Source of the DNA: Nereocystis luetkeana
Lineage: Eukaryota > Sar > Phaeophyceae > Laminariales > Laminariaceae
DNA: 64,000 nucleotides
NCBI GenBank assembly: GCA_031213475.1
Contig: JARUPZ010000003.1
Location: 7,060,740 to 7,124,739, forward strand
Direction of reading: 5' to 3'
Below the pieces are notes generated by a model that searched no databases, had not been told where the DNA came from, and was given only the letters and a program-made list of their open reading frames with translations. The position numbers and the translations under genes are program-made. Below, piece by piece: positions 24,901-63,830 of the stretch. Each line of letters begins with the position of its first letter. Position 1 is the stretch's first letter.

Positions 24901-25289
24901 GTGGGTCAAACTGTTGATGTTTCGTAGTTAGAGTAAGGATGCAACAAATTCTGGCAGTGTAGGAAAACCCTGACCACGTAGAGCAACTTAGGGCCTCTAA
25001 CAAGGCCATGAAGTTTCGCGTGTCTCAGCCGCGATCTGCCGACTGAATGAGTAGTAGCCGCCCCGTGCCGCTCGAGTACACCAACGAATATTGCCGGACA
25101 TGTTGTACACAGCATCGCGGACTCAACGAAGCTGAGGCTGCCGGGATGCGCGGCTTCTCGACTAGTTAGTGGGCTTAAAGGGTAGACGGGATCGCCTGTG
25201 CACCTCGCTTCAAGACAGTACCCCCGTGTAAAGACCTCGGGCATGCGTATGAGGATTCGTGCGGAGCTAGGTTACTCAAAAACGAAAAA

Positions 25290-41107: not shown

Positions 41108-41662
41108 ATGACGACGATGCCCGCTGTAGACGATTCCGGCAGCACAGCAGGCTCCGCAACCCACGGCGATGCATACCGAAGTTTCTGCGATGTGTTGGAT
41201 GAGAAGGTCGATACGAAAGTAGCAGCACCGGCCGAGCAACCAGGACAACTCGTCGAGGCCTCCCTCCAGACCTCTGCTGCTGAGGCTAGGAACAGCAGTG
41301 ATGCTGCTGAAGCTGCTGCTGCTACTGCTGTTGCTGCTGCAGCAGCTTCAGCTATTCGTGCCACCACGAACGTGCCGACGCCTGCACACAGCGCCGACAC
41401 CTTCGACCAAGCGGCCCGGAGTCTTCGCCTGGGCCTGGTCGGCCGACACGCGCCGTTTCGGACACCGTTCGGGCTGAAGCCGCTTGTCTACTCGGACTGG
41501 ACTGCCACGGGTCGAGCTGTGTCTTGCATCGAGCGGTACCTCTATAACGACGTGCTGCCGCTGTTTGGCAACACACATACTACCACATCCATCACGGGTG
41601 CGCAGACGACTTGCTTCAGGCATGAAGCGAGGCAGATCATCGCGGAGGCCGTCAACGCTAAG
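41108..41662 (+). CDS. Fusion gene, exon 1
   Basis: Residues 1-185. An Ala-rich, low-complexity N-terminus is followed by the start of the aminotransferase domain: [20 protein letters not shown], then [16 protein letters not shown] and [13 protein letters not shown]. Phase 0, donor GTGGGT. ATG 41108 is the first in this frame after the upstream region; no clear organelle-targeting peptide is visible. Confidence 0.88.
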
Positions 41663-44600
41663 GTGGGTGCGTTCTCCCCGTTGGGACTGGGGAGGCTTAC
41701 GTCTGACAAACCCCTCCCTAATTGCAAGTAGTTTTTCCTTCCGCGCAAGTACGTAGGGCACCAGGCACCAGGTGCTGCCGCCCCAGTTATATACCAGTAC
41801 GTAGGCACGAGTGGGGACAACTACTGCTGTACCTGGTATTAATAGTACGTACGAGGCGCTTCCCATAGCGGGCGATTCCGCTCGCTCACGAGCAAGAATG
41901 GAATGGAACAGACGGCCCGAATCATTAGGTGCGGACAGGCGACTTGCAAATGCCAAGAGCCCCATGCTTGATCCAGGAAAACAGTCCGGACGCCGCATGC
42001 ATGTACGTACTCGTACGTACGTGCATTCTTCTTATCTTCTTTTTATTTGTACGAAAGAGAAAACACAACACGGCACAGCAACGCGAACACAATTATTACG
42101 GGGGACCACAGTTAATAGGACCTATGGTACACATAAAAACCTATATATTTAACCATTTTTACTAACAATATTTGGTCCTATTAACTATAGTCCCCCGTAA
42201 TAAATGACACGAAAATTGAAGAAAAACGATCAAAACGTCCCCTCTGGTATAATTATTTCCCGCCGGATTGGAGCCCCTCACGCCGGAAAAAAAAAAAAAA
42301 AAAAAAACGAACGAACAGCAGAGCTTCCCCTCAGCCTGGTACGGGTACGACCCTCTCGCAACCACCTCACCACCGATTAGGTCCGGGTAAAGCTTTGCTC
42401 CATCTCTGCCCCAGTGAGCCCCGTCGCACGCCTCGCGTGAAACCCGGTGCTTACCGTGGCCCTCGTTCGCCAGCTCGACAATGTTGGTGTTGAGACGGCG
42501 ATGCTTTCTCTCTGATATTCCTGCTTGGTCGCAAAAAGAAACATCGCTTGAATTGTTTTTGCAACTCAAACAGCCCTTGGGCCATCTCTTATGAGGGTTT
42601 TGAAAAGCGAAAAACTTACCCGAAACTGTGCTTTTATACGTGCTTTCACGTACTTTAGACCCGGAGTCCGACCGAATCAGGCTCGCTCTTCTCAGAATAT
42701 CTGCGGTCTTTTGGGGAGAGGTATCTAGACCCGTTTTCCTTTTCTCCAGGGGTATCTTTCCAGTTTTTTACGATGCTGTCGTCTTCAGACAAAAAAATCA
42801 ACAGGGCGTTTTCAGATACATATCGACGTTTCAGCCGAAAGAATGACCTCTTTTTCAGAGAAATCGAGTTCGACACTGAATACTTCGAGGAAACTGGAGT
42901 GTATCGACGATGTTTCAAATTGATGTCCTGAAGAAACGGCAAACGGCGTTGTATGCCTTTCGCAAAATGGCTGGTGGGACTTCAAGAAATGCGGGCCCGA
43001 TTCGCCCGTTTCCCTGCTCAAACACGCCTGCGAAGGTGCTGAAACCTCGATTTCCAGAAACCGAAACCGGTTTAGCATAAGAGATGGCATTGGGCCGTTT
43101 CCTATGCAGTTCGAGTTTTGAGCTTCAGATCTTGACCCAATCGCATTTTCAGATGTGAACTTGGCATATCGAAACCGTCTTCCTATGCGGAAAAATCCGA
43201 TTCTTGTGTGTGCAGAGATTCGAGCAAACGCCGAGACCAACTGCTGTTTTTGTGGTTCGGCGCCACGAAAAGACGCGCTGGGTGCGCTGCCCTGCGCGTA
43301 GGACCCGAGCGTCCGACCTAAGGCTGGCTGTCCCCGGTCTGGCGGCGAAGAGACGTGGCGGGTGCGCTAGAGCCAACCTGTCTTGGTATTTTGTGTTCCA
43401 GTTTGTGACTGACTGCTGCGGCTGCTGCTGCTGCTGTACAGCAATTTAGTCTACGAGTACTCGTACGTATCCCCCGAGAGGTGCGTGCCGAGTTTGTTCT
43501 TTAGGCCCGAGCCCGCGCCAGCCGACTGCATTCTGGCCACGGAGGGACGCGCAGCCCGAGCGTCGGGCACGAAGCAACGTCGCTATACAGCTGTGTACCA
43601 CCCAATTCATCGATAATTCTGCTGCTGTTTGCTGTCGTGGATAACATCTTGAACTTAGAGAGCATGACATTTTTCGATTTGTGGAAATCTAATGACCCAA
43701 GTCGTCGGGTTTTGGCCAAAAATCCGACGAATTGGGCCATCGGATTCTCAAATCGAAAAAAACCCGGTCGGATGTTGCATATTCGGTCTGCATTAGCAGG
43801 GTCATTCATTTTTTAGATCGAAAAATACAAATCTGAAGATCGAAATCGAACCGCATAGGAATCATATAGGAATCAGTCTCACGAACTCGTACCAGGTACT
43901 TATTATCTTCAACCCGACGTCGGAAAGACAGACAGGGCCCATTAATGCTTCCCTCGTGTCTCGATGTACACACCACGCCTAGCCACGAAAACGGCGACCC
44001 CGCTCCTTCTAGTATCACCTCTGCCCGCCAGCGCCCACCGGCACCAGCGATGGCGCCGCGCTCGCCCGCGGCGCCGTGGTCTGGGTACACGTACGCACAC
44101 AAACGAAAGAGGAAGGAAGTATCTCGCCGGCATGTAATAGAAGGAGGCGGTGTCCGATTGGGAGCTCTTGAGATGCCAGGGATGTACCAACCGGGCACGC
44201 TACGGAAACATATATCTCTGAATAAGTCTATATATCAGGTATATACTGATTTGTATTAGCGCAAAAGCCAACACTCGGGGAGATTGAAAGCCAGCTCTCA
44301 GGGAGATCCCGCTCATATCGCACCCCAGTATGCCGAAGCAATGCGCGTCTTATGTCCTGCTTCATGCAAGGTCAAGGTTGCCCTTCGGGATGTGCTTTGC
44401 TTGAAACCTGACGGGTGTCACGTATTGAAAAGGGAGAACACACGTTCTTTTACTGGTACACCCATGAGCCTATGCCAGGTTCGCTGTGCTGTTGTACAAG
44501 TTGTATGATCGCTGCTGTTGTTGGACGGCCGTGTTTTGCACGCCGCGGGTACCTTCAGAAGAAAACGCGGATCGCGTAAAGTAGGACGGCGCAAATGCGC

Positions 44601-47600: not shown

Positions 47601-50600
47601 GCCACCCCGCCTCCGCCTCCATATCGGCCGCCACCTCACTCACCCCCCCTACCCCCACCTCTGCCTCCACATCGGCCGCTACCTCAACCCTCCCCCAGAC
47701 CCCCACCTCCACCCCTGACCCACCCCCTGACCGCCGCCCGCACTACTCTCTAGGTGACCGGACGGGCGGCGGAAGACGTTGTGCTCTTTACCGGGACAGG
47801 TGCTACTGCTGCAGTCGCGAAACTTGTGTCTGCGATCGGTCTATCTGGCCCGCTTCCTCGGGGGTCAAAGCCGAGCGACAGGTGAGATTGGTAGCACTAG
47901 TATTTCATAGTAGAGAAGACGAGGAAGATGATCGGATAATAATGTATCATACCTGCGGTATGTGTTGGAGCGTTGCGCTCCCTTTGGCCGTGTCGCTGTT
48001 GGGCTGTTACGCTGGTTGCGTGGCTTGACTCCGCTTTTTTTGGCCGTATCGGTGTCTGTTCTTGGCTTCTTGGATGTCTCCTTGCTTTCGAGGGGGCGTC
48101 GGTGAGAATGCCTTTGAGTTGGCGAGTTCGTACCGAGTACGATTGGCTGACCGGTCGAACACGCGGCGCTATGTATCCTCTGTCTTGGTGACATTTATCC
48201 GTGTTTCCGTTCCTAAAAACCCTTTTTCGAATAGTGTTTGTATCCGCAGCGCGCCTCCCTCCTCCCCAGGTGTAAACCCTTTGGTAGCTGGAGGTATTGC
48301 GCGCTTCACGAAACAGAAATCGGCAACCAAGGCGCGGCCAACCATGGCAAGGATGGCGGGACATAGGCGTTTGCTTATCTGTCGTGTTGTTTTTGTAGTT
48401 CTGGTCGAAAACGTGTATTATCAGTTTGAGGAGTTTGTGTGTTACTCACTCGTGACTCTCTTTCGTCTGTGTTTGAACTGATCATCTGCTTGTTCTACAA
48501 GAGGGAGGCAAACAAGGGTATCTCTTTTATTTTTCCCTTGCGCCTAGTTTCGGTGTTCCTCGCGTTTAAAGTCGGCCCGCTTGCTCCACGATGTTAGGTG
48601 TTGAACGAACGGCTTTGTCTACAGTAGTAACCATGTCACTTCTGGTCCCAGGTCTCACGCGGCGCCCCCTGGGGCTCCGGCTCAGACCTAATTGCAAGCA
48701 AGCCGGGTGCACCGCAGGGCACCAGCGCCTTCAGCTCGAACAACTAACCAATTAAAGCAAAGCCTTCCAAGCAGTGGGGGCCTGCCCTGGGGCTCAAGAT
48801 GCCCTCGGCTCGACTGAGGTAGTCCACGCAGAAGCCCACAGAGCGAAGATATATTCGCGCGCCGCCGAACCTGAACCCCGCCTCCATAAATTAACGACTC
48901 CCTCGAACACGGAGGCCGGCAAGCGACACGTTGCACGACGCTTGCTTGTACCCCCACTACTCGCCGGCCCGCTCCGAGTTGATGCTCCGCCGGCACCGTC
49001 CACCTTTTACATGGACACGAACGACCCCCCTCCCCGTCTACGCCCTTTCCTCCCCTACCTTCCCTGCTCGCCCTGGCTACACTTTTCCCGCCCGTCCCCG
49101 CAATAATATCGCCGCCACCGCCTCTGCCGCTCCTGCTGCTTCCCCCTTGCCGTTCTCTCTTGCGCGCGGTGAACAGGCCTGTGGTGTTTGTGGGCCCGTT
49201 CGAGCACCACTCCAACCTGCTGCCCTGGCGGGAGAGCTGCGCCGAGGTGGTCACCATCGGGGAGCGGACGTCCGGGGGGTTGGACCTAGGGGAACTGAAG
49301 GACCAGCTCGATCGCTTCGCGGGCCGCAAACCCAAGATTGGTGAAAGTCGTGTCTGCTCTTCGTGTGTGTGTGTTTTCGGTAGTGACGCCCTGATTGAAG
49401 TCCGGTCTGCTCCCGACACCGGAGTCGTAAAGTCGCGGAGGGGGGAAGGAAGGCGGCGTCGATGAGCCGCCCGGCTTTGCAGTCTGTGGCGGTGGTTCCG
49501 ACCGTACGTTTCGTGGTTGGTTGAATTCGGATGGCTTTTTCACTGTCGTGCAGTTGGAGATGCGCTGCTGTGTTTGCACGTGCGTGTGTTTTGTGTTAGC
49601 GAGGTCATGTTTTTATATCAGTTCTTTTTTTGTTGTTGCTCCTTACGCGGGAGAAGGCGTGACACATGCTTTTGCTCGATTTTACCCCCACCACGGTGCA
49701 ACGTGTCGGCGCGGGTACCTCCGAGGGTGTGGCTATTTCGTAGTTTAATAGTTACCCCCCATCCATCGTATAATAGCACTCTGGTAACCGCCAGCGCTGA
49801 TACTGCAGATCCAAACGGTCGGATATCGGATAAACCTACCGTACTCGTGGGGTGCGGTCGGCGTCCTGCCCTGTTCGCCATTCTTCCCCCCACCCCTCGA
49901 TGCCATCCATCCACTGCTGTGCGTTTGTGCTGCCTGTGTTTCGGGCGCCTTGCCCGCCACAACGTGATTCAATTATTGTGTATCCACTGTTGCGCACGCC
50001 TCCAACGCTGTCGCCGTCTTTTCTAATGGCATCTCTTGGCTCGTTCTTGATCGCCCAATCACCCTCCCCACGCGCGCCCGCGCCTCCATCGACGATCACC
50101 TCGCCCTTCCTTTTCGCGCCACCTTGTAACTTTATCGTTAGGGTCGTTTTCGGCGGCGTCCAACGTTACGGGTGGGCTAGAGGAGGTGGACAAGGTCACG
50201 GCTACGCTTCACCGCGCAGGCGCTTTGGCTTTGTGGGATTACGCCACCGCCGCGCCGTACGTGCGCATGGACATGAACCCCGTGGCTTCGGGCGCTGACG
50301 ACCAGGTTGGCGCTGCTTTATAGCTGTATTTGACAGCACCAAGGTGTACGAGCCAGGTGTAGCAGCCAAGGGTGGAAGCCGTGGCTAGCGATGGACGGTT
50401 CGGTCTTGGGGGGGGGGGGGTAGCTCAATTTTACCAGTACGTACGTCTTTCTGGCTCTGGGAGGGGAGAGAGGGGGGGGCTGGAAGGGGTGTTAGGGGGG
50501 AGGGTGAGAGAGAAACTCTGGGAGGGTCACGGAGGCGTTCGTAGTTTGTTTTGTGCGAGTTTGATGTGAAACCCCATGGACCGATTGTAGTTTTGCGGAG

Positions 50601-51313
50601 CGGTCCTCTGAAACCGTCCGCAGCCCGCACTTACACCCTGCTCTCATGCTTGAGAAAGCAGGGCGCTATGCCTCCGTGCACGTTTCCGGTGCCTCGCGCT
50701 TGTCGCCCCCCTGTCTCGTGCACCCGTTCCTGCCATCCCGGAGAGCTCGTCAGTTCGCACACCCCTGACCGATACCCCCGTCCGTTGGCTTTCGAAAACC
50801 CGATGCTCATAGATGCAGTTACACTTGCCCCTCCACACCACCGCCACCGCTCACCTCTCCCCCCCCCCCGACTGGCGTTGCCATCGCTCTCGTCCGTGAC
50901 GTGTGGCCCTTTCCTCTCAGGCTTTGGTAGCGAAGGACGCGATATTTTTCTCCGGCCACAAGTTCTTGGGCGGCACAGGCACCCCCGGGGTACTGGTGGT
51001 TAAAAAAAGCCTCCTTCGTAACGCTGTACCGGGCACCGTCGGAGGGGGCACGGTTTTCTTCGTCACGCAGGACGACCACCGCTACTTGAGGTCATGCCCC
51101 TGTGTTGGCGTCGGCGTTGGTGTTGGTGGTGGTGTTGGTGGTGTTGGTGGTGGTGGTGGTTCGGTGGTGACTTTTGGAGTCTGTTTTGTTTGGGTTGTTT
51201 GTTGGGGTTGGTGTTGGTGTTGGTGTTGGCATTGGTGTTGTTGTCGTTGGTGTTGGTGCTGGTGATGTTGATGTTGTTTCCGCCACGTGCGCCGATTTTG
51301 CTGCCGCCGCCGC

Positions 51314-51369
<56 letters not shown>

Positions 51370-54300
51370 GAGGCATGGCTTCTTTGTTTTGTTCGTTTTT
51401 GCTGCCGTTCGCTGCCGTTGGTTGGTGTTGCCGTCCGCCTGTAGTGTTCTGGTCGTTGCTTTTTCGAGTAAGACGCTGGGCCCGTGCGTTAGTTTCGAGG
51501 GAGAAGGTTTGGACGCCACGCCCTCGACCGGCTGAAGGTCACCCGTGATTCTTTCGGGAGAGATGTCTCGGCCGCGGTCTTGTTTTGTCGATGTCCCCCT
51601 CCCACCTGAAAATCGAGGAAGAGGAAGGTCATGGTTGCTGCGTTTCGTTGCACATTTCTGCCACGTGCGAAGCAAGACGGGCGGAGGGGGGAAATTTGGT
51701 TCGTGCTTGTTGGGACACTTCGTTCGCGTGTACTGTCATTAATATACATGGGGGTATTAACTCAACGAAACTTGAGCTTGCCCTTAATATTGGCGTTCGA
51801 ATTGGTCTTCGCCCTCACCTCGACCTGGGCATCTGACATCGACCGTGTCCTTGATGTTGAAGTTGACGTAAGTATGTGCCTTGACCTTGACCTGGACCCT
51901 GACCGACAGTAAGCATTGCACGCCCCGGACAGGTCATCGCTTCCCACCGTTCGTCATCTACCTTTTGCCCTTCAAGGCAGATAATGTTCCAGACAATGTG
52001 TTATGTACAGTAGCCCATGTGGCCTGGTGAGACCCGCACAATCCGCACTATCTAGCATGTGCCCTGGGTTGGATCTGCCCTACAAGGCAGATTCTGCACC
52101 GCCTTTCTCAGCGGCAGGTGAAGACCTCGATCATCTGGACTGCAGATTAAACAGATCACGATCTGCCCTCGTAATGTGTGCATTACCGTCCTCAACTCTG
52201 ACCTTGACCTCGACCTTGGCCTTGACACTAACATTGTCCTCAAACTCGATCTCGGCCTTGCCCGCCGTGACTTTTATTTTTTGTGGTGCGGGCCTTCAAT
52301 CTTCTCCTCGGCCTTTGCCTTCACTTTGCCGTGACTCTCACGCTATGTCTCCTGTGGCAGCAACAAGGAGGAGCGGGAGGAGGGGGGAACGCCCGACATC
52401 ATGGGCTCCATCCGCCTGGGGCTGGCGGTACAGATGAAGGAGAGCTTGGGGAGGCGGGCCGTACTGGTGAGCGTCGCCGCCGCCGCACGCGCCCTCCATA
52501 TTCGGTGCTTTTTCGCACACCCCTGTGCTCTGTTCCTCACACCGCCCCTCCTTATCGCTGTTGGGCGGCGAAAAGGCGGGAGCCAGGGGGCGCTTCGCAG
52601 GGTGTACCGGTACGCTTGGTAGGGGTGCAATTGGCGTGATATGCGATATTTTTATCTGAGTACTCGACATTGGATATTGAGAAAGGGCTGAGAAAATACG
52701 GGCGGCAAACATGTAAGTGTCGGACAGAATAGACGTTGCCGTGACACTGAACTGTGAGTTTTGCACTTACGGGGGTGTAACGGGGGGGTTGCTGTTATGC
52801 GGGTACCGGACAGGGGTGTGGTGGCATCTGTCTGCTAGAAAAGGCGCGCGTAGCATTGCCTTGGGCTGCATGTACGTGCACGAGGGGGAGGGGGGGGGCA
52901 GAAGAGGTAAATGTCCGCCTCGGCCGGCGGGCTCGCTCTGTGTTCGCGATGGATTTTTCGTTCGTCGGCACGGCGTTAGGGGGGGCGGGGGTGGAGTGCC
53001 GCACGTTGTCGATGAACTATCGAGACGGAGAGCGTCGAGGTTGCAAGGCCGAACCGACCGACAGCTGCCTGCCGCCCAACCGTGAACATCAATCCGGTGT
53101 GAGCGTCCCCGTGCGGTCGATGCTATCTTTCACGGGGAAGATGCTGCGACTCCCGGGAGAGTTTTCCACGTGTTACTTAGGCATCGTCCCAGGGGGGGGA
53201 GGGGGTGGGGGGGGACCTCCTTTCCTCCAGCATAAGCTTGAGCTCCAGCGCACCCCCGTTGTAGCCGATTCGCTGTTCGGGCGAGCCGTAGAGCTCTCCC
53301 CGAGATGTTACGAGCGCTTGCTTCAAGTGACCAGTACTGTTGTGTGCGCGTTCAGGAGAGGGAGGAGGCCCTGGCCGAGCTCGGACTGAACACACTGAGG
53401 GGTCATCAGGGAATCGTCGTCCTCGGCGACACAGGCAGGAAACGCCTCCCCATCTTCTCGTTCCTCGTCAGGAGTTCCAATGGACGGTGAGAGGCACACG
53501 CATGCTTCGCGGAGTATGTGGCGCAAGGCGCACGCAGACTCAAACACGGGCACGAATACCCACAAAAGCGGACCCAAACGCACCTACCAGGTATATATTT
53601 ACTTTTAATGGACACAAACACGAACAAACGAATACAACATTAACACTACTGGACCACGGGCATAAAACGCATGCCTTGCACCAGCTACCTGCCTACTTTC
53701 TTTGAAAAACACTCACGCGCGCACAGACAGTGCCTAAATCCCATGTATTTATATAGGCTCTCACGCACACACAGACAGACCAAAACACAACTATGCCAAA
53801 CAGACATAGCACTGACCGGAACAAAATGGAACCACCACCAAGGCACGCACGCTCGCCTCGCGCGCGCGCAGGCGGCTTCGCTGTGTGTAGCCTGACGCCG
53901 TCGAGTTTATCACGCCCACAACCGCGACGGGAAAATTCGGGTCTTGCTAGAGTGTCTCAACTCCCAAATGCCACTCGACTTTTCCATGTGTACGAGCTGG
54001 TCCCTCCGAGAGGATCACGGTGTTTTTATGTAGACGAGAACAGTTTGCACGTATATTGCATCCTCGCCACCCCCTCCCCCCCCCCCCCCTGGTGCAAGCA
54101 ATGTCTGCCTGGTCGGTGAAAACCCGACATGCTCCGTCCCGGCATTGCATGAGACCGAGTACATCTATCCTATCGAGTACACCCCCCCCCCCCCCCCCCC
54201 CCCCCCCCCGCTCTCCTCCCCATTTCCAGAGCCAACAACCCACTCATTCGCTGCTCCGTTGGGTGCGTTCTCTCCGCCAAGGTACCTCCACTACAACTTC

Positions 54301-54498
54301 GTCTGTGCGCTCTTGAACGACCTGTTCGGCGTGCAGTCCAGGGGGGGATGCCAGTGCGCCGGCCCCTACAGCCAGCGCCTCCTCGGAATGTCGCCCGAGG
54401 ACACGAGGGCGGTGGAGTCGGAGCTGCTCTGCAAGCACGAGCTGCTGAGGCCCGGGTTTTCTAGGTTCAGCCTGGCGTACATCAACTCCGACCAAGAG

Positions 54499-54545
<47 letters not shown>

Positions 54546-57500
54546 CCTTTTTTTTATAGATTTTATTCGTCCGGTCTTTCAGTTCCGCCCCAATGGTCCG
54601 GTCGAAGAGGTCGTGGTGCTCGGGATGCTCTTGGTTTTGGGGGTGTTGGCAGTGTTGTTGTTGTCGTTGTTGACTGTTGTGGTTGTTGTGAACTTGTTGC
54701 TGCGATTGGCGTTCTGGTTACTATTTTCGTTGTTTTTGATGTTACTGTGGTTGCGGTCGATGTCAATATCGGTGTTTGTTTGACTGCCGTTGCTGCGGGC
54801 GACCATCCTGCGATCACTGTGCAAGCCGGCATGCTGTTTGCTCCTGGGGGGGGGGGGGGGAGGGGGGCGGGACAGGGGGCATACTTGATGCTGAAGGGTT
54901 TTTTATGTTAGTCTTGCCGTTGCTGTTAGGTTTCGTCGGCGGCGTTTGGGGTTGTTAACGTTCTTGCTGGTGTTGTTGCTGTTCTCGCTGTTACTGCAGG
55001 CGAGAGGTACACCCTAGACGCGGAGCCAAAGCGTTGTTGATGTCAGCGCTGCCGTTGCTACTGTTTTTCGCCGCTAGTGTTGAGGCTCTTGCTCGCGTGG
55101 TTTGCTTAATGTTGCTGCTGCTCTTGTTCGTGCAGGCGAAGTACATCCTCGACGCGGTGCTGTTCGTGGCGGACCACGGGGCGTCGTTCCTGCCCCAGTA
55201 CCGCGTGAACTACAAGACCGGGGAGTGGAAGCACAGGACGAGGTTCACGCGCTTCCCGGAGCGAAGGTGAGGCGTTTTTGGTTTATTTCCGGTTTTTTTT
55301 TTTTCAATGTTTGTGCCTATCACTTCTCGTGCCACCCTGTGCACGTCCGCGTCTGTTCTCCGTCGTCCCCCTCCCCGCTTGCGTTTGGTCGCCCGCGTCG
55401 AATTCGTGGTCGCCGCCACCTGCCTGTTACTTTAGGTGGGGACCGTGGTCGGTGATCATCGACACACGGCGCACGCGTGCGCGCATCTCTGGATGCCAGC
55501 CACGGAGGCTGCACCCGAAGTGCCGCCCCTCGTCCGCCGCGCTACAGAGGTGCATCCATGGTTTGCATGGGTTTCAAGACGGAGCCACCCCCTGCCGCAG
55601 CAGTAGCAAGAGCCGGCTCGCGCCTTCGTATTTTCTTCCCCTCCTTCCTCTCCGCTATCTCTTCGTTTCCCCCATTTGTTCTCCCTGAACCACTCCTTCG
55701 TCTCGAAAGCGGTGGGTGGTCAATGGCCAAATAGGCAAGGCAAGCATAACATTAGTGTGCCCTTCCCGGTGGGTGCAAACCCGACATGCTCCTTCACGGC
55801 GTTGTAGGAATGCAATGGTCTGTGGTCATACATCTACGGCCATGCATGATATTGACTACCCCCCCCCCCCTCCTCCGTTTCTCTTGCTTGGCTCTCCCCT
55901 CCCCCTGATTTGTCTTTCCCTAGATGCCCATTTCCCCTCCTTCATATTGCCCGCCCCCCCCCCCTCCCCCTCCCTTCCCCTCCTTCCTCCCGCCTACCTC
56001 TCCACTCTTCCTCCCATCTATCTTGACGAAACTACCCCCTTTCCTCCTGACAACCCGCCAGCCTCCTCCCCTCCGCCCATAGGGCGTTGCTACCCTCCGC
56101 AGTGCCCCACAGTCGGTGGCAACACATCCCCTCTCCTCTCTTGCCCATCCCAACCCCAAAATAACACGAAACAGGTGGTTAGGGCACTGCAACTACGGCT
56201 TTCCCGCCTCGTCGGCGTCGAAACCCCAGGGTAAGGAGGATGCCCCAGTTCAGGGCTGGGCGGGACCGGGCGGGTTGGAGGCGCCGGGGAACACACCGGA
56301 GGCTCGGGAGGAGGGAGTGAGAGAGCGGGAGATGATGGAGGCAGTGTTCCAGGAGGCGTTCAAGCATCTAACGGCGGCTGATGCTGGGTCCCGCGAGGAG
56401 CGATGGCAAGGGTGAGCGAGGCTGTGTTTGTGCTGACGTGTTCGTTGTGTGGTGTGGTGTGTTGTGCTATGTTTTGTTGTTGGTGTTTTGTCGTGTCGTG
56501 TTGTGCTTTATTGTATGTGTTGTGTCGTGTTGTGAGGTGTTGTGTTGTGTTTTGTTGCGTGGTGTAGTGATTTGTTGAGTTGGCTTTGTTGTGTTTTAAT
56601 GAGAGGTAAGTTCTTTTTTCAATGTTGATATGTGCTCTCAGGCGCTGTGCCGCGTTGTGCTGTAAACCGTTGGGCTCGTCTGTGTTTTTGCTGTGCCATG
56701 TTGTGCTGTGGTGCTTTGTGTGTGGCTGCGTCGTGCTGTGCTAAGCTGTGCTGCGCTTGGATGCGCCGTGCCCTGCCTTACTGATCGGTAGTGCTGTTTG
56801 TGTTGGCGTCGCTGTTGGCGCTGATTTGAGTGCAAGCGTTTGCGCTTTCATTGGTGTTGGCGTTAGTGCCTGACCTTGGTAGGTTGGCCTATTTGTTTTT
56901 TGCACCAAGCGGCAACCAATCTCCACCCTCGATCGACAGCTTCGTTGGGCGAGAGGGAGACAACGAGAGTGTGGGACGGGTGTTTGGATGGAGCGGGTGT
57001 TTGGAGGTACGCAGTGGGGTGGCGGCGGCGAGGGAGGGAATTCGTGGTTGAGTGACGCGAAGCGTTCTGCTTGAAGGAGGTCTTACTTTTTGGAAGTTTG
57101 TGATTCGCGATTCGCGATCGGCGCAATGCACGAGTATGCCGCATGTGGTTGGGTGCTTTGGGCAGGGGACTGCGGGAAAACTATCGCTTGCGAGTGACGT
57201 CGTCGGCTCAATTCTAGGACGCGAGCCTTGAAAAGGGTGGCGCGTTTTTTCCTCGGAAGTTTCCCGCCGCCGGTTTGTCATGCTCAACCCTTTCGTCGTG
57301 CGCGTCGTCCCCTCCCACCCCCCCCTTCCCTCTCTTCTTGATATGTCGCACCCGCCCGCCAACCCCGTTCAACCGCTACAGCGCGGAAGACGTGCTGGGG
57401 GCCGAGGGGGAAGCCCTCCGTTGGTTTCCATACCCTTGGGAAGGCGGCAACGGCAGCAATCCCCGCGGAACCAGCGCGGCGAGACCCACAGACTCTTCGG

Positions 57501-60353
57501 CGGATACGCCTGGTGCAGACGTGTCGGGGGTGCCGTCGGCAGAGGGGGCGGAGCACGGGATGGACCCCTCGCCCCTTCCCGTGGATGAAGTGCCGTCCTC
57601 CTTTTCCTCGTCGCCCTCTCCGCCCTCCTCTGGCCGATGCATCATCAACCCGGCGGTCTATGGGCCCAGTGTCGAAGGAGCGGACGCTTCGGCGGCGTGC
57701 CCCGGTGCTCGAACGGGGGCTAGGCAACCAGAAGGGAGGGCGGTGCTACGCTCTTTGAACGAAGCGGCCACACTCGCCATCGCGGCGGGTGTTGCTCGTG
57801 CAGGTACTGCTGGTGCTGCTTTTTCCTCCATCGGTAAGAGCGTAGCTGCAGGCGAGGAGGCCGGTTCTCGCGTTGGGGAAAGGTTCAAGGAAGATGTGGG
57901 GGCGGTGGCGGAGACGAATAGCCCGGGCCCGGGCCGACCCGTTGGCGTAGGGAGAGAAAATGGGGAAGGTTTGGCGGTAGCGCCGGAGACGACCAGCCTT
58001 GTCGAGGGCGCGGGCGCGGTGAGGATGAAGGCTTCATCGAAGGTCAGTTACCGGTCGGACAGCGCTCTCGTGCGTGGCGGCAGAGGCTTCCGCGCAGTTG
58101 TGCACGACTGCCCCTCCCTTGTGCTCAGCTTTCCTTGCCCTTGTCCGGTCTCGCTATTGTTTTGTGTGTTTTCGCGCGGCGTGTTTGGTGTTGCCATCCG
58201 CATCCTTTTTTACCCTACCTCTACCCGTCCTCCCACGATTGGCTTATAGTGCGTCTCAGGGTTGAAAAACTAGGTATGCGTTTCGTCCTAGTACCCCCAC
58301 GTTCTCGCGGTTTACTTCCCCGGCGTTCCCTGCGTCTTTGCAGGTGATACGCGACTCATTCACGAGAACGACAAACGTTCCGTCACGCACGCACAAACTG
58401 TGGGCGAGAAACGTTCCCTCCTGAGAGCTCGAGGCAGCGGTAGCAGTAGTTGTCGCTGACATTTCAATCCATCGCGGCGGGTTAGCAGGGCCCTCCCTCA
58501 ACCACATTCGTGTTTTCTCTTTTGGCGCCTTCCCCCCCCCCCCCCCCCCCCGCCCCCCCTTATTTCTCTTCTTCTTGTGAGCAGAAGGAAACTACAGGTA
58601 AAATTCGAAAAATAGACGACAGCCACAAGTACCCGCTCCGCAGGAGCGGGCAGACGGGTTTTCTCGCAGAGGAGGGGGAGGCGGTTTTGTCGCCATCAGC
58701 CTCGGCGTCGCCGTCTTCCATCACCGACGCGGTCACCGTGGCAACTGGCAGCAGCAGCAACAGCAATGGGCACGGCGACGGAGGCAGCGGCAACATCAGC
58801 AGCAAACAGAAGGGGTACGAGGTACACATGGCGGCCTTGGGCAAGCTGGGTGCCGGGTCGGCTGGCTCGAGGTTGTTCCCGAAGCCGGGGAAGAAGATCT
58901 TGAGGGCTGTGGGCCAGGCGGTGCAGGCGAGTCCGTTGTTCTCTACTTACGGGGGACTATATTAAATAGAACCTACGGTACGCACACACAAACCTATACG
59001 TTTCGCCATTTTTACCAGCAATATTTGGTTCTATTTACTGTCGTCCCCCGTGATATATATATATATATATATTGTTCTGCGTTTCCCCCTTATTGTACGT
59101 ACTTACTTGTCGCCCACGACGTCGTCGTCGTCTTCCGAGCTCGGTTTGATGTTCGTTTCGTTGCTTGATTTTGTTTGGTGATTTTGGTCTATTTTGTTTG
59201 TCATTGGTGAGGCGTTTTTGTCCAGTACCGTTCACATGAAGGGGGTGTACTCCTCCCGTGGTCATACGACTGCTGCGGCCACGCATGGGACGAGTACACC
59301 CCTTCTCCCTACTCGCCCTTCCGCTTCCTCCTCGTGTCACCTCCCCTTCCTCTGTCGCCTCCCCCCCCCCCCTGTATAGTAAATGAAGGGGTTGGGTTGG
59401 CGTCGGTTGGCAACGACACCGTAAAACATGCCGCTCACTACTTGAGCTACAGCAGACAACCGGGGCACCGTTTTTGTTTCTTGTTGGCGGTCGATTGCAG
59501 CGGGCGATCGAGTGATAGATCACTTGTGCGGGCTGGAGAACCTTTGCTCTGCACGAGGGGAATAATCGCATCACGTATTTTTGTGGGGAGGCACCCATGA
59601 GGCAGTCACGTACTGCCCCACCCCCACTGCCGACTCTAGAAGTGGCCACACCGGAGATTACACTAACTCATTGAAGCTGTCATTCATATGCAAGTCCGCC
59701 TCACAAGCAGTTCTTGGTAGGATGCAGCTCACCCTTGATGCGACTCGCCGGACACCTCACGTTTTTCTTCGCGCTTGTTGCAAGCAATGCCTGCCTGGTC
59801 GGTGGAAAACCGACGTGCTCCGTCCCGGCATTGCAGGGGTGCGAGGGTCTGTGGTCATACGACTACGGCCATACATGATCTCGAGTACACACCACCCCCA
59901 ACCTCCCCTTCCTCGGTTTTGGCTTCTTTTTTTCCAGTTCGCCCCCTCCTTCCTATCCGCTTCGTTCCCCCCCTCGTAACATCTATTCACCGGGATATCC
60001 AAAAACGCTTCCGTTTGGACCTGTGCGAAACTCCTCACCTTTTGTCAACCCTTTTAGGACTGCAGTCCCGTTTTGGGGACAGACTGCTTAGAATTATATT
60101 GGAATGTCCCCAAAACGGGACTGCAGCTCCGAAGGAGTTAAAAGGGGCGCTGCTGACACGTTGTTTTCTCTTTCGGTCTCCGCGACGGAACGGGCATGGG
60201 CAGGGGTGGAAGATGATCGAGGAGGGTGACCGCCTGTGCCTGGGGTTGTCCGGTGGCAAGGACTCCATGACTCTGCTGCACGTGCTGCTGGACCTTCAGA
60301 AGCGAGCGCCGATTAAGTGAGCGAGCTCCGTATGTTGGTGGTCATTGTGGTGG

Positions 60354-60384
<31 letters not shown>

Positions 60385-63300
60385 GGTCATTGTGGTGGTG
60401 GTGTTGTTAGTGGTGGTGGTCGTGGTGGTGGTGGTGGCGATGGTGGTGTTGGCGTTGTATTTTTTGTTTTTGTTTCGCGAGAGGGTGGAGGGAGAAATGG
60501 ATGTCCGGGAGTGGCGGTGTCAACTCGTTCTGCTGCCCCCCCCCCCCCCGACGCGTGCTGCGACAGAGGTACTACCTTTTGCCTCGCAAGGCAAGCGAAG
60601 AACTCTAGGGCGTGGGATTGTTGATCGGAAAACGCCAGCGTAATATTGTCAAACATTGAGGTTTTCTCACTAATAGTATGGAGTCCCTCAGGCGAGGAGC
60701 GTCAAGAAAATAACATCATCGTAGAAAACGCCTCCACGCTTGAAAGAAAGACGCCCGCAGCATGCTGAATTGAAAACGGCATGTAGTGGCGTAAACGTTC
60801 GTGATGCGAACGTGCCGCAGCCCGGCGCTTGAAACACTGACTGACATCAACTGCGTCGTTTGTTTTTTGACGCAAATGATGGCAGCACTTACCCTACAGT
60901 AACCCGTCCTTGAAACTCGCCCATCGGTGAGATGAAAAAACAGATGGGTCTGTACTAGGTATATGTCAGCAAAATACCTGAACCCCTCTTGAGAGACGCA
61001 AGCGATGTGAAAAAGTAAAACGAGTGAAAAAGGTAAGCGTAAGTCCTTTACCGTATAACACGCGCCTGGTAAACCGTTTAGACAGATGTGACAGCAGAGC
61101 ACGGATCGGTCTTCCTTTTTTATCGCCCCATACAGTTCGCCCCCCCTTTCGGTAATGCCGCGGTGCCTCCCTCGATACTTGCGTCTTTCTTATCCCTTCA
61201 CCCCCTCGCCCCTCCCGAACCCCACTCCCCACCCCGCTTTCCGCCCCGGTCCGTCAGCTTCGAGCTGTCGTGCGCGACTGTGGACCCGCAGACGGCCTCG
61301 TTCGACCCGTCCCCCCTGATCCCCTACCTCGAACGCCTCGGCGTGAAGCTTCACTACCTCAGTTCTCCCATAATCGAGCTGGCCAAGACCTCCATGCAGG
61401 GGGACAGCCTGTGCGCATTCTGCGCTAGGTGAGAAGGAGGGTGTTTCTGCTGGGGGGGGAGTGTTGATCCTCGTAGTACTGCGGTCCCGGTTTGACGACA
61501 AAATACTTGGTTTTTGACTAGATTGTCCCCAGAACGAGACTGCAGTCCTAATAGGGCTATAGCTGGGTGTCCGGAAAACTTGGGGGCGAGGGGGTTCGAA
61601 ATTATGTTGTGAGCCTCGAGTTGATGAGTTGAGTCGTAGTTGAGTCGAGCGGAGTGGGGGTTGAGTTTTTCAGTTCGATTGGTTTTGAGCAACTTGGGTG
61701 GGGTAGTTGAAGTTGAAGTCAGAGTGAGTGCGGAGTTGTAGAGGTGATGGTAGGGTAGGTTGGAAGATGGGGGGGGGGGGGGTGAGGGATAGTCTGTTGG
61801 GGGGGAAGTAAGTTTGAGGAGGAGGAGAGGTAGAGGGGGAGGAGGGGTTGGGGGTGGGTGGTGCAACGAGCGGTGAGCAGGGGAGGCGCGGGGGGGGGTG
61901 GTGGTAACCTCGCACTGGTATGATGGGCGTTGTGGAGGTTGGGCGAACAGTGGGCCGCGGCTACGCGCGAGGCCCATGGTGCTGTGTCACTTGGGCTCCC
62001 GTGCCTCGGTTGGTTGCAGGGGATGGTGACTGTAGATAGTGATGCACCATGGTATGCTACATGTGTACAGCGAGAAATGGCGCCGAACTAGCGTCGAGTT
62101 AAACGAAGACACCCCCCCCCCCCCCCCCGACCTTTGAGCTCCCGTGCCTCGGTTGGTTGCAGGGGATGGTGACTGTAGATGGTGATGTATGCTACATGTG
62201 TACAGCGAGAAATGGCGCCGAACTAGCGTCGAGTTAAACGAACACAACGCCTCGCCCCCGCCCCCCCGCCCTCCTTTCTTCCTTCTGGCGGAGCCGCTGG
62301 CGTTGGCAATTGCCCCAGCGGAATTCTTTAGAGTTTTATTTGCCAAACAGATAGCGGAATATTTTGTTTGCTCTCAGCGCGTCAAAAGACAAGTGCAGTT
62401 TGCCCAATCTGTGTTACACATAGGTACGTCTATCACATGTACGATAGGCGTTGTGTAGTCGTCTCTGCTTCCCTTCCCGCCGGTGTGGAGGTACTTGTAC
62501 TCCGTGATGGTGGAGGTGATCATGTTGGTCGTCATCGTCTTCGTCGTCGTCGTTGCCGTCGTCGCTGCCGTCGTCGCTCTTGTTCGCACGGCCAGGATGA
62601 AGCGCGGGCTGCTGTACTCGTGCTGCCGCGAGCACGGCTACAACAAGCTCGTCCTGGCGCAGCACCTGGATGATCTTGCCGAGAGTTTCATCATGTCTGC
62701 GCTGCACAATGGCCAGGTGCTTCAATATACCCCCCCGCCCCCCTCACTCCCCCCGTGCCCCCTTCCCCCTTCTTTTCTCTCCACAGTACCCCCCTCAATC
62801 GTCCCGCCTGTTTCCTGCCCACCTCGCCCATCCCCCTTTTCTCTCTCACGCTATCAAGCATTCCATTGTGGGAAAACCCTGAAGGTATTTAGAGACGCGC
62901 CCCCTCTTCGCAACGGGGAGAGTCACTTTCATTCATCGGGGAGTTCCTATAGGAATATACTACTTGCAAGCATTGTCTGGCTGGTTGATATTTGCTGGCG
63001 CCTGACTAGTCGTAGTGCGTTTCGACGCATGCTCTAGGTCTCGGCAGTGCACGCGTACGTACGATCACAGCGGTCGTCGCGAGCTTGTTGTTTCAGTCGT
63101 CCAGGCATACTCCCGCCTCGGGACCTCGCCTTGGGACTTTGCCTCGAACAAGCCACCCCTTTTGCTTTTTTGGTTTTGCGCCGACTTTTATGCGATAACT
63201 TGGTTGACAAGTATCCCCCCGATCGCGACGATAAGTTCCCACCACCCATCCTTTTGACTTGACTTGCAATTCTCCCCACGAGCGCGACTTCAATGTGCCA

Positions 63301-63830
63301 CCACCCGTCCTATTGACTGCCGTAAGTTCTGTACCGTTTTGATATATTCTTGGTTGCTCCAGGATGCCCCCCCCGACCACCCCCTCTCTCCATTGCATCC
63401 CTCTTACACCTCCCCGCTTCTCCACCCCCTACCCTTCCGCCCCCCACCCCACCATGTCCCCAAGAATATGTTTGGGGTGTTTTAGGTCGCGATCTACATG
63501 TCCCGAAACGTTTACGCTCTTCTTGGTGCGGGATGCCCCGGAACAGCCCGGTCTCTCTCTTTCATCCCTCTACCCCGCGCCCGCGGTTCCCCCCCTTTGC
63601 CTGACCTCGCGTAATTGGATGACACTCCTCCTCTGCGCTGTTCTCTGAAGGTCCGCACGATGAAGGCCAACTACAAGATAGAGGCCGGGGACGTTCGGGT
63701 GATCCGCCCTCTGTGCTACGCCAGGGAGGCGTTGATGAAGGACTTTGCCAAGGCCAACCGCCTCCCGGTGGTGAACGAAAACTGCCCCGCGTGCTTCGAG
63801 GAGCCCAAGGAGCGCCACCGCGTCAAGAAG
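41108..63830 (+). CDS. Fused class V aminotransferase (cysteine-desulfurase-like) and TtcA-like PP-loop tRNA thiolase; 3' end beyond the window
   Basis: Sixteen exons join in phase: 41108-41662, 47754-47881, 49177-49340, 50142-50305, 50921-51090, 52361-52466, 53356-53486, 54282-54498, 55136-55266, 56175-56411, 57382-58042, 58585-58926, 60204-60316, 61258-61428, 62596-62716 and 63651-63830. They give 1197 residues without a stop. Residues about 120-690 are a PLP-dependent class V aminotransferase fold: HH at 238-239, Asp315, the Schiff-base lysine 351 in SGHKFLGG and a cysteine loop GGCQCAG (496, 498). Residues about 690-985 are a Ser/Ala/Gly-rich linker. Residues about 985-1197 are TtcA-like: PP-loop SGGKDS (1018-1023), CAFC (1092/1095), HLDD and CPAC (1182/1185). 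By family knowledge, desulfurases pass sulfur from cysteine and TtcA makes 2-thiocytidine in tRNA with an Fe-S cluster, so the fusion suggests sulfur relay within one protein. That role, the site in the cell and the exact start are inferred. Confidence 0.88.
42096..42200. mobile_element. MITE-like element, family A, copy 4 (best preserved)
   Basis: 105 bp with near-perfect ends TTACGGGGGACCA and GGTCCCCCGTAA-type (here AGTCCCCCGTAA), flanked by TA on both sides, a likely TA target-site duplication. It lies in intron 1 of the fusion gene. Confidence 0.85.
43669..43762. repeat. Imperfect fold-back of about 94 bp in intron 1
   Basis: TTTTTCGATTTG at the left pairs with CAAATCGAAAAA at the right, and AATGACCCAA..CGTCGGG pairs with CCGACGAATTGGGCCAT around a centre near 43716. 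It is non-coding. It could be a very short foldback element or a structured intron segment. Confidence 0.6.
46280..46743. repeat. Tandem pair of a 232-bp unit in intron 1
   Basis: Two adjacent units start at 46280 and 46512 with TCTCGTAGGTACCTGGTACC and differ at only a few positions, including one single-base length change near 46571. The start of each is a palindromic GGTACCTGGTACC. A recent duplication; no gene is seen in it. Confidence 0.85.
47754..47881 (+). CDS. Fusion gene, exon 2
   Basis: Residues 186-228: [20 protein letters not shown] and [16 protein letters not shown], the small-domain glycine-rich loop that binds PLP phosphate in class V aminotransferases. Acceptor CTCTCTAG, donor GTGAGA, phase 2. 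The 6.1-kb intron before it is the longest in the gene; its 3' part is a C-rich tract with a repeated block of about 50 bp. Confidence 0.85.
49177..49340 (+). CDS. Fusion gene, exon 3
   Basis: Residues 228-282: [20 protein letters not shown] and [20 protein letters not shown]. His238-His239 match the histidine region stacking on PLP in the family. Acceptor GAACAG, donor GTGAAA, phase 1. Confidence 0.87.
50142..50305 (+). CDS. Fusion gene, exon 4
   Basis: Residues 283-337: [19 protein letters not shown] and [20 protein letters not shown]. Asp315 takes the place of the aspartate that contacts the PLP ring nitrogen. Acceptor TCGTTAG, donor GTTGGC, phase 0. Confidence 0.86.
50921..51090 (+). CDS. 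Fusion gene, exon 5 (PLP lysine)
   Basis: Residues 338-394: [20 protein letters not shown], then [20 protein letters not shown] and [13 protein letters not shown]. Lys351 in SGHK is the expected Schiff-base lysine. The donor is GTCATG, a weak GT site, directly followed by the TTGGTG-rich tract of intron 5. Confidence 0.87.
51102..51369. repeat. TTGGTG-rich tract and (CCG)/(CTG) microsatellite in intron 5
   Basis: Positions 51102-51275 are built of GTTGGTG and GGTGGT variants. Positions 51302-51369 are a CCG run passing into about 17 CTG units. Long frames here on both strands (poly-Cys, poly-Leu, poly-Ala, poly-Gln) are products of the triplet repeat. Confidence 0.9.
52361..52466 (+). CDS. 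Fusion gene, exon 6
   Basis: Residues 394-429: [20 protein letters not shown], then [24 protein letters not shown] is a hallmark stretch of this aminotransferase group. Acceptor TGTGGCAG, donor GTGAGC, phase 0. Confidence 0.86.
53356..53486 (+). CDS. Fusion gene, exon 7
   Basis: Residues 430-473: [20 protein letters not shown] and [19 protein letters not shown]. The [10 protein letters not shown] strand is typical of the large domain. Acceptor GCGTTCAG, donor GTGAGA, phase 2. Confidence 0.85.
54093..54180. repeat. Short hairpin repeat, copy 1 (intron 7)
   Basis: GCAAGCAATGTCTGCCTGG starts a family whose first half folds back on itself (GCAATG.CTGCC with GGCATTGC; GGTCGGT with ACCCGAC). The second half carries GAGTACA before a C run. 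Relatives are at 55760-55860, 59777-59896 and about 63908-63975, with a partly related hairpin at 59241-59305. Confidence 0.6.
54282..54498 (+). CDS. Fusion gene, exon 8 (cysteine loop); GC donor
   Basis: Residues 473-545: [36 protein letters not shown], then the helix to [11 protein letters not shown]. Cys496 and Cys498 lie where cysteine desulfurases carry their persulfide cysteine loop. The next exon begins AKYILDAV in phase 0, so the exon ends before GCGAGA: a GC donor. No GT fits without adding residues from the GA run. Acceptor CGCCAAG. Confidence 0.82.
54501..54542. repeat. (GA)n microsatellite abutting the exon 8 donor
   Basis: About 21 GA units begin two bases after the donor and form the first bases of intron 8. 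Changes in repeat length would act directly next to the splice site. Confidence 0.9.
54985..55020 (+). pseudogene. Decoy copy of the start of exon 9
   Basis: TACTGCAG followed by GCGAGAGGTACACCCTAGAC and GCGGAGC mirrors the true acceptor and first codons of exon 9 at 55131-55162 (GTGCAG, GCGAAGTACATCCTCGAC, GCGGTGC), and the sequence before both is T/G-rich. Used as an exon it would read ARGTP and stop. A worn duplicate of an exon edge, about 150 bp upstream of the real one. Confidence 0.65.
55136..55266 (+). CDS. Fusion gene, exon 9
   Basis: Residues 546-589: [36 protein letters not shown] and FTRFPER. This is a conserved stretch of the C-terminal part of the aminotransferase. Acceptor TTCGTGCAG, donor GTGAGG, phase 2. 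Confidence 0.85.
55760..55860. repeat. Short hairpin repeat, copy 2 (intron 9)
   Basis: It is related to 54093-54180 and 59777-59896: CGGTGGGTGCAAACCCGACATG, shortened here to its CCCGACATGCTCC core, then GGTCTGTGGTCATACATCTA and CGGCCATGCATGATATTGAC before a C run. Confidence 0.55.
56175..56411 (+). CDS. Fusion gene, exon 10
   Basis: Residues 589-668: [20 protein letters not shown], then an acidic helical stretch [24 protein letters not shown] follows FPER of exon 9 in the expected order for the family. Acceptor CGAAACAG, donor GTGAGC, phase 2. Confidence 0.83.
57382..58042 (+). CDS. Fusion gene, exon 11 (end of aminotransferase, start of linker)
   Basis: Residues 668-888. The first 22 residues ([20 protein letters not shown]) end the aminotransferase. 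The remaining 200 or so are rich in Ala, Gly, Ser, Pro and Glu, with no recognised domain, and form the linker. Acceptor CGCTACAG, donor GTCAGT, phase 0. The linker's composition is close to the local GC-rich sequence, so its exact length should be checked with transcripts. Confidence 0.78.
58585..58926 (+). CDS. Fusion gene, exon 12; GC donor
   Basis: Residues 889-1002. A charged start ([16 protein letters not shown]), a Ser/Gly/Asn-rich middle, then the beginning of the TtcA-like domain, [15 protein letters not shown]. The next exon starts [11 protein letters not shown]. coli TtcA has RRNVGEAIADFNMIEEGDR, the same spacing. The exon therefore ends at CAG before GCGAGT, a strong GC-type donor. 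A GT two codons earlier would shorten a conserved helix. Acceptor TGAGCAG. Confidence 0.8.
58947..59053. mobile_element. MITE-like element, family A, copy 5
   Basis: 107 bp with TTACGGGGGACTA and GTCCCCCGTGA ends lie in intron 12, only 20 bp after the GC donor of exon 12. A run of TA follows at 59052-59073. Inner blocks match copies 3 and 4 closely. Confidence 0.8.
59241..59305. repeat. 65-bp hairpin related to the short repeat family (intron 12)
   Basis: GGGGTGTACTCCTCCC pairs with GGGACGAGTACACCCC around a centre GTGGTCATACGACTGC. The centre matches the second half of the short hairpin repeat at 59777-59896. Confidence 0.6.
59777..59896. repeat. Short hairpin repeat, copy 3 (intron 12), most complete
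   Basis: GCAATGCC at 59783 pairs with GGCATTGC at 59838, and GGTCGGT pairs with ACCGAC inside. After it come GGTCTGTGGTCATACGAC and TACGGCCATACATGATCTCG. The string CTACGGCCATAC is also found at the 5' end of 5S rRNAs, but the rest does not continue as 5S. Confidence 0.6.
60050..60147. mobile_element. MITE-like element, family C (intron 12)
   Basis: About 98 bp: CCCTTTTAGGACTGCAGTCC with CCGTTTTGGGGACA at the left, and the reverse (TGTCCCCAAAACGGGACTGC, then AGTTAAAAGGG) at the right, around an AT-rich centre. It is almost all terminal inverted repeat. Relatives are at 61475-61551 and 13370-13460. Confidence 0.8.
60204..60316 (+). CDS. Fusion gene, exon 13 (PP-loop)
   Basis: Residues 1003-1040: [20 protein letters not shown] then [23 protein letters not shown] is the ATP-binding PP-loop of the tRNA thiolase family. 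Acceptor ATGGGCAG, donor GTGAGC, phase 2. Confidence 0.9.
60346..60450. repeat. (TGG)n microsatellite in intron 13
   Basis: About 100 bp of GGT/TGG units with few interruptions, starting some 30 bp after the exon 13 donor. Confidence 0.88.
60660..60733. mobile_element. MITE-like element, family B, end fragment (intron 13)
   Basis: About 74 bp match, inverted, the first 75 bp of the element at 5769: GAGGAGCGTCAAGAAAA, then ATCGTAGAAAACGCC at the end. The rest of the element is missing. It links the intron region to the repeat-rich left half of the window. Confidence 0.65.
61258..61428 (+). CDS. Fusion gene, exon 14 (first CxxC)
   Basis: Residues 1040-1097: [40 protein letters not shown] and [22 protein letters not shown] (1092/1095) matches CSLC of E. 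coli TtcA, which helps bind the 4Fe-4S cluster there. Acceptor CCGTCAG, donor GTGAGA, phase 2. Confidence 0.9.
   Translation, partial: LRAVVRDCGPADGLVRPVPPDPLPRTPRREASLPQFSHNRAGQDLHAGGQPVRILR
61475..61551. mobile_element. MITE-like element, family C, decayed (intron 14)
   Basis: TACTGCGGTCCCGGTTTG at the left and TTGTCCCCAGAACGAGACTG with CAGTCCTA at the right. It is shorter and more worn than the copy at 60050. Confidence 0.65.
61993..62250. repeat. Tandem pair of a unit of about 145 bp (intron 14)
   Basis: CTCCCGTGCCTCGGTTGGTT begins both units (61994 and 62138). Both go on through GGGGATGGTGACTGTAGAT and ACAGCGAGAAATGGCGCCG to CGAGTTAAACGAA. A C run separates them. The left unit has a few extra bases near 62043. 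Confidence 0.85.
62596..62716 (+). CDS. Fusion gene, exon 15
   Basis: Residues 1097-1137: [20 protein letters not shown], then [24 protein letters not shown] stands where TtcA has HHRDD, a conserved active-site stretch. Acceptor CGGCCAG, donor GTGCTT, phase 0. The intron side before it is a TCGTCG-rich tract. Confidence 0.9.
63651..63830 (+). CDS. Fusion gene, exon 16 (second CxxC), last one visible
   Basis: Residues 1138-1197: [40 protein letters not shown] and [24 protein letters not shown] (1182/1185) matches the C-terminal cysteine pair of TtcA (CNLC in E. coli). Acceptor TCTGAAG, donor GTACGT. The family usually has some 40-60 more residues, so at least one more exon should lie beyond 64000. 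Confidence 0.9.

Follow-up and report, generated by a model that had tools for sequence, protein, structure and literature searches.

A kelp gene predicted to join a SufS-like desulfurase domain to a divergent TtcA-like tRNA thiolase domain

The tRNA thiolase TtcA is thought to activate the base of its substrate with ATP and to hold a [4Fe-4S] cluster by three cysteines, an arrangement that leaves one iron free for sulfur (PMC5372739, PMC5372745, PMC10067955). In E. coli, the listed sulfur donor is a separate protein, IscS, and the sources consulted describe the sulfur route to the [4Fe-4S] tRNA thiolases as still under discussion (PMC5372745, PMC10067955). The locus considered here, which lies in a 64,000-nucleotide stretch of the genome of the brown alga Nereocystis luetkeana (contig JARUPZ010000003.1 of assembly GCA_031213475.1; this whole stretch is called the window), raises the question of whether a eukaryote carries a desulfurase-like enzyme and a TtcA-like thiolase in one polypeptide, and whether the first half of such a protein could supply the second.

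The gene was rebuilt from the raw sequence, its exons being anchored by protein similarity and splice sites, and the resulting model occupies positions 41108-63830 on the + strand of the window, with 16 exons and 1197 codons, free of stops and consistent in phase (Table 1). The original prediction of 16 exons and 1197 unbroken codons is reproduced by this independent model, which has the same ends, and the motifs that it named are all present at the residues it gave them: SGHK, which starts at 348 and contains lysine 351, GGCQCAG, which starts at 494, SGGKDS at 1018-1023, and CxxC pairs at 1092/1095 and 1182/1185. A Pfam profile search, which had been named beforehand as a check, also finds both domains in the chain and above their cut-offs, namely Aminotran_5 at residues 128-546 (133.7 bits, cut-off 21.5) and ATP_bind_3 at residues 1013-1178 (60 bits, cut-off 27). 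The chain runs past 63830 into an exon 17 outside the window, which completes the thiolase domain; a stop codon or last exon beyond exon 17 was not found, as none of eight terminal-exon candidates was convincing.

Table 1. Exons of the gene model, with the features that they encode; positions refer to the window, except for exon 17
Feature	Position	Strand	Content
Exon 1	41108..41662	+	ATG 41108; low-complexity N-terminal extension (residues 1-119), then desulfurase-like domain begins
Exon 2	47754..47881	+	Desulfurase-like domain
Exon 3	49177..49340	+	Desulfurase-like domain; EHHSN, active-site histidines 238/239 (71/71 relatives)
Exon 4	50142..50305	+	Desulfurase-like domain
Exon 5	50921..51090	+	Desulfurase-like domain; PLP lysine 351 at 50960-50962 (71/71 relatives)
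Exon 6	52361..52466	+	Desulfurase-like domain
Exon 7	53356..53486	+	Desulfurase-like domain
Exon 8	54282..54498	+	GGCQCAG loop; Cys496 at 54349-54351, Cys498 at 54355-54357; then GC donor
Exon 9	55136..55266	+	Desulfurase-like domain
Exon 10	56175..56411	+	Weakly conserved C-terminal part of desulfurase-like protein
Exon 11	57382..58042	+	LRWFPYP, last conserved desulfurase-like motif (about 57416-57436), then most of linker
Exon 12	58585..58926	+	Remaining linker and first thiolase-domain residues; then GC donor
Exon 13	60204..60316	+	PP-loop SGGKDS at 60249-60266
Exon 14	61258..61428	+	First CxxC (1092/1095) at 61412-61423; aligns with E. coli TtcA CSLC
Exon 15	62596..62716	+	Thiolase domain, HxxDD motif
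Exon 16	63651..63830	+	Second CxxC (1182/1185) at 63783-63794; chain goes on into exon 17
Exon 17	L009 1380-1493		38 codons; donor GTGAGT; end of thiolase domain

Two introns, those after exons 8 and 12, begin with GC instead of GT. The genome also contains an unfused paralogue of the N-terminal half, on the minus strand of contig C20 at about 15900-25400 (L121-L122), which is 61% identical over 472 columns and, as judged by eye, has several intron positions in common with the window gene. The paralogue intron that matches the one after exon 8 also begins with GC, which supports this donor, and its intron after the KIG motif apparently does so too; GC-AG introns therefore look normal in this genome. 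At the other end of the gene, the codon use of residues 1-119 scores -0.17 on the scale explained below, which is near the intron range (mean -0.30, 95th percentile -0.12), and for this reason the true start codon is uncertain. Given this start, the first 60 residues are acidic (10 acidic and 3 basic) and lack a clear signal peptide, the sole hydrophobic window near the N terminus being an alanine-rich stretch at residues 69-83; this composition argues weakly for a cytosolic location of the predicted protein.

That the model owes its two halves to an error of assembly or annotation, which brought unrelated exons together, is very improbable. The introns are repeat-rich, as such an error would have it, but the sequence from 41000 to 65200 contains no run of N, all exons follow one another in order along a single strand of a contig of 17 Mb, the frames fit at every junction, and the exons of the C-terminal half match only at this locus. 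As for the repeats themselves, similar short inverted-end, MITE-like elements lie inside introns of the gene at 42090-42206 and 58945-59060 (the second recognized by eye only), and a second type of inverted-repeat element, with CTGCAGTCCCGTTTTGGGGAC, occurs in neighbouring introns at 60047-60139 and 61478-61556. Upstream of the gene, near-identical open frames recur 26-28 kb apart (570-1151 with 26406-27011, and 7170-7799 with 35167-35796, the latter pair on opposite strands), which suggests that the first 40 kb of the window contain duplicated or mobile DNA, and two related open frames at 8384-9070 and 17834-18439 contain a repeat with Trp and Cys, possibly a sugar-binding domain (by eye). 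Downstream and beyond the window, L010-L011 (78845-82450 if the window numbering is carried on) holds frames that resemble, by eye, a non-LTR retrotransposon endonuclease and reverse transcriptase.

Evidence on whether the two halves belong to one protein comes in part from the linker of about 290 residues that separates them. The aligned bacterial relatives of the N-terminal half end near the RWF motif, and exon 11 runs on open for some 200 codons beyond this point before it joins exon 12 in frame. In total exon 11 has 220 open codons, a length with no counterpart in the introns: the 589 stop-free runs counted in introns on this strand all stay below 190 codons, with a maximum of 186, and none of 912 intron windows as long as the open run past the enzyme end (about 200 codons) is stop-free, although only four of these match its G+C. 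Codon use was measured with a score for synonymous codons whose training set was the two domains. On this scale the whole linker scores -0.02, as compared to 0.13 and 0.23 for the domains, each scored by the other, and to a mean of -0.30 for introns. Exon 11 as a whole outscores each of the 547 intron windows of equal size, which overlap and are not independent, and nearly all of which it exceeds in G+C; four of its five parts, taken alone, rank among the top 5-23% of such windows, a weak result. In the linker part of exon 11 a reverse frame with four stops ties with the exon's own frame (-0.039 and -0.040), and in exon 10, which scores 0.02, another frame with four stops reaches 0.09. The frame controls in exon 11 weaken the evidence from this exon and were taken to make a single fused protein, and with it the self-supplied reading described below, somewhat less probable. 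In exon 12, the stretch of 81 codons that precedes Met970 behaves differently: it scores higher in codon use than 509 of 510 intron windows, which again overlap, and among the six frames its own scores best (0.031, against -0.099 for the second). Of 397 intron windows of equal length and matched G+C, on the other hand, 54 lack a stop as well.

Met970 matters because the locus could also hold two neighbouring genes on the same strand, a desulfurase-like gene that ends in a retained intron 11 and a thiolase gene that starts at this residue. It is the only methionine in exon 12 and precedes the PP-loop by 48 residues, a position like that of the start in standalone bacterial relatives; an unspliced exon 11 would meet an in-frame stop at about 58249, the codon use of exon 11 is weak, and the C20 paralogue, which reaches its own stop codon some 40 residues beyond RWF (near C20:15921), shows that the N-terminal protein can stand alone. 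No convincing C-terminal half was found in roughly 16 kb of the C20 contig beyond the paralogue. We nevertheless regard two genes as unlikely, since the codon use upstream of Met970 is coding-like and frame-specific, exon 11 stays open for about 200 codons beyond the enzyme end, and the frame is kept across the junction of exons 11 and 12. Taken together, the open frame, the phase, and the codon use speak for one continuous protein, even though the contribution of exon 11 is modest, and we conclude from the DNA that the locus probably encodes a single fused chain, translated from what would be a single mRNA. Of the proposal that a desulfurase-like and a TtcA-like protein are joined here, the joining is supported at this level, whereas the IscS type of the donor does not.

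The N-terminal half is, by its sequence, a distinct subfamily near SufS (group II, SufS/Nfs2-like) and not IscS-like. In the NCBIfam scan the order is SufS, encapsulin cargo desulfurase, SufS, and CsdA, with a weak DndA match of 19 bits, and no model named IscS is listed, so that an IscS-type donor was rejected. Because the score of 129 bits is below the NCBIfam SufS cut-off of 475.1, the half is labelled SufS-like rather than SufS. Among proteins of solved structure, those closest to it in sequence are SufS-type desulfurases (E 5e-25), and the subtypes named among 44 PDB sequences are SufS, CsdB/selenocysteine lyase, CsdA, and a chloroplast enzyme. In an alignment of 70 bacterial loci and the C20 paralogue, from which, as from the tree, 4 of 74 loci (truncated, 300 bits or less) had been dropped, all 71 rows keep not only the histidines and the lysine marked 71/71 in Table 1 but also His350, Asn241, Cys496, Cys498, Asp315, and Arg534. 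Cys498 and the EHH histidines align with SufS, with which the half also has in common the fold, the PLP lysine, the arginine, and the catalytic loop cysteine of the SufS/Nfs2 group. The loop, however, reads CxCAG in this family in place of the HHCA or HCA of the SufS sequences compared, so that CxC replaces HHC, and the family differs further by its conserved C-terminal RWF region and, in the window protein, by its union with a thiolase. The fold was tested on the model of a bacterial sister protein, L027, rather than on the window protein; this model has a mean pLDDT of 88.7 and its top structural matches are plastid Nfs2 and bacterial SufS. The best 50 of its 1913 matches are all group II desulfurase or selenocysteine lyase entries, at an identity of 21-24%. 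The structure alignment took in 31 of the 74 bacterial loci.

These 74 loci, found in a scan of bacterial genomes, encode standalone enzymes that are 38-51% identical to the N-terminal half, and Actinomycetota account for 44 of the 70 bacterial rows in the alignment. Relatives on plasmids are, among the best 15 of 178 records, class V-fold PLP-dependent enzymes by name. In the tree, which is a quick one without bootstrap, the window half and the C20 gene are joined with SH-aLRT 100, and the genes of two Rhodospirillaceae bins, L025 and L027, stand as sisters to this pair (support 97). The L027 gene lies in a region (2-7839) with an ArsR regulator, a TauE exporter, a DsrE-like protein, and CCG- and 4Fe-4S-domain proteins, which we take to be HdrB/HdrC-like; relatives of the CCG protein also occur near L079 (8629-10798) and L080. 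A further neighbour cluster, with a cysteine-synthase-like protein, is present at L025, L027, L032, and L057, the Pfam check covering the L025 member only and the L027 member being a longer mechanical ORF. When the enzyme itself and overlapping ORFs are left out, the largest neighbour family accompanies at most 6 of the 74 loci, so these sulfur-related neighbours of a few bacterial genes suggest sulfur chemistry as a minority pattern.

The C-terminal half, as far as its sequence tells, is a divergent TtcA subfamily. Aligned to E. coli TtcA, it keeps the PP-loop, HxxDD, and both CxxC motifs, which are features of the tRNA 2-thiocytidine(32) synthetase, and in this respect the TtcA-like assignment of the original prediction stands; the assignment has to be loosened in that the half scores below the NCBIfam cut-off for the TtcA equivalog, the 2-thiocytidine enzyme (200.1 bits, cut-off 272). 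It is also below the cut-off for the TilS N-domain (62.1 bits, cut-off 93.6). With the cut-off of the 2-thiocytidine enzyme missed, position 32 of the tRNA is only a guess as the target. Canonical TtcA and the C-terminal half are 30-37% identical in the rows compared and fall into separate clades; the subfamily has NCPAC in place of the canonical PCNLCGS, and in the window protein the thiolase is joined to a desulfurase.

Among 398 genomes sampled in one bacterial phylum, 225 contain a match to the C-terminal half and two a close one (58% and 47% identity). In the bacterial family of the best match, 113 of 117 genomes contain a match, which in 112 has an E value of 1.2e-58 or lower, and the full-length rows of this family, that of the 58%-identical genome, have 47-59% identity. 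Twelve such bacterial genes were inspected and their proteins appear standalone; open frames of up to 887 codons had looked like fusions, and this candidate was rejected, the arginine-rich upstream part being a likely non-coding frame. In the tree, in which the program flags long branches, the window row included, the window half joins two bacterial proteins of the divergent subfamily with a support of 100/99. For two genomes with the divergent subtype, G253 and G035, this gene is the best match to E. coli TtcA (39% and 37%), whereas two comparison genomes have a TtcA at 73% and 65% identity to the E. coli protein. Of these two, G253 is the one assigned to the family with 113 of 117 matching genomes (e.g., L132, L151, L152; NCPAC type). 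As a hint from two genomes, the divergent gene may take the place of TtcA in those bacteria.

The expectation that the two enzymes are separate proteins in bacteria is borne out, since both halves occur alone among the bacterial genomes examined. In the alga, a search of the whole genome (465 Mb) found the C-terminal half only at the window locus. Two other PP-loop (PF01171) genes emerged from a Pfam search of the genome, at C4:2988053-2989333 and C23:9648868-9650509; this search missed the thiolase exons of the window, and exon-by-exon searches can therefore miss members. No thiolase was detected by tblastn in the flanks of the 74 bacterial N-type loci (at most 8 kb a side, often less), and the TtcA profile had no match in 872 mechanically called ORFs neighbouring them. 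In 34 N-bearing genomes the C-terminal half found a match in 20, all at 35% identity or less and none of the C subtype. Conversely, the N subtype was seen in none of 25 C-subtype genomes (4/27 matches, made up of two positive controls and two weak general matches) and in neither of the first two C-subtype genomes, which were run without a control. No bacterium tested has both subtypes, and thus no ancestral partnership was found. An origin from a bacterial fusion or operon was rejected on these three grounds, that is, no flanking thiolase, no neighbouring ORF match, and no co-occurrence of the subtypes in 34 N-type and 27 C-type genomes. An origin from giant viruses was set aside as well, as viral contigs gave no confirmed match for either half with six exact peptide patterns each (one pattern match was unconfirmed).

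What would such a protein do? From the conserved motifs of both halves and the known dedicated pairs, we infer that the simplest reading is a TtcA-type version of a desulfurase-supplied thiolase. PLP on Lys351 would free sulfur from cysteine and leave it as a persulfide on Cys498, with Cys496 as a possible relay. In the other half, ATP bound at the PP-loop would activate the tRNA base, and a cluster held by cysteines 1092 and 1095 and one of 1182/1185 would receive the sulfur on its free iron, from which it would be moved onto the base. The covalent joining would stand in for separate carriers. We lean slightly towards this self-supplied reading as a whole, namely one nuclear gene for a bifunctional protein of at least 1235 residues, in which a group II desulfurase is followed by the linker and by a [4Fe-4S] PP-loop TtcA-like thiolase, with both activities present and the sulfur handed over within the chain.

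The fusion might also be real while its N-terminal half is another PLP lyase, with selenocysteine or a different sulfur compound as its substrate, for instance, rather than the donor of the thiolase. The distance of this family from the SufS cut-off (129/475 bits), its unusual invariant CxC loop, the sulfur-oxidation-like genes that adjoin it in a few bacteria, and the selenocysteine lyase entries among the structural matches listed all fit such an enzyme, but the family retains Lys, Cys, His, and Arg where group II desulfurases have them, and most of the fold matches listed bear the name cysteine desulfurase. We consider it a fairly unlikely alternative to a self-supplied thiolase. With more reserve, and only tentatively, this self-supplied protein can be read as a eukaryotic, covalent [4Fe-4S] tRNA thiolase assembled from two bacterial-type enzymes, a group II desulfurase of the CxC type and a divergent TtcA, that are not paired in any bacterium tested. 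In that case the tRNA of the alga would contain 2-thiocytidine or some other thio-base, made with no need for Urm1- or Tus-type carriers.

If true, the fusion hints that a eukaryote has a tRNA modification so far unrecorded there; the review consulted lists 2-thiocytidine for bacteria and archaea only (PMC5372739). It would also place donor and acceptor on the same polypeptide, where point mutants could test the hand-over. The enzyme classes are known, the joining appears to be new, and both subfamilies are unusual. A natural desulfurase-TtcA fusion was not found in the open-licence papers searched, and it may already be present, unremarked, in eukaryotic annotations. The closest functional parallels in the sources consulted are the YrvO-MnmA and NifZ-ThiI pairs, in which, as proposed here, a desulfurase is devoted to one tRNA thiolase (PMC5372745). 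In B. subtilis yrvO adjoins mnmA, and YrvO-MnmA needs no carrier proteins (PMC5372745); these pairs, however, are separate bacterial proteins with other thiolases, whereas the window gene is TtcA-like and covalent. A covalent thiolase-desulfurase chain does exist in engineered form, for MnmA of the P. falciparum apicoplast can be replaced by a fusion of B. subtilis MnmA and YrvO (PMC10219651). MnmA alone also complemented in one of four attempts, and the link in that fusion is thus not shown to be needed (PMC10219651). The engineered chain shares its covalent nature with the window gene and differs from it in being man-made, in its IscS-like YrvO donor, in its use of MnmA, and in its opposite domain order (PMC10219651).
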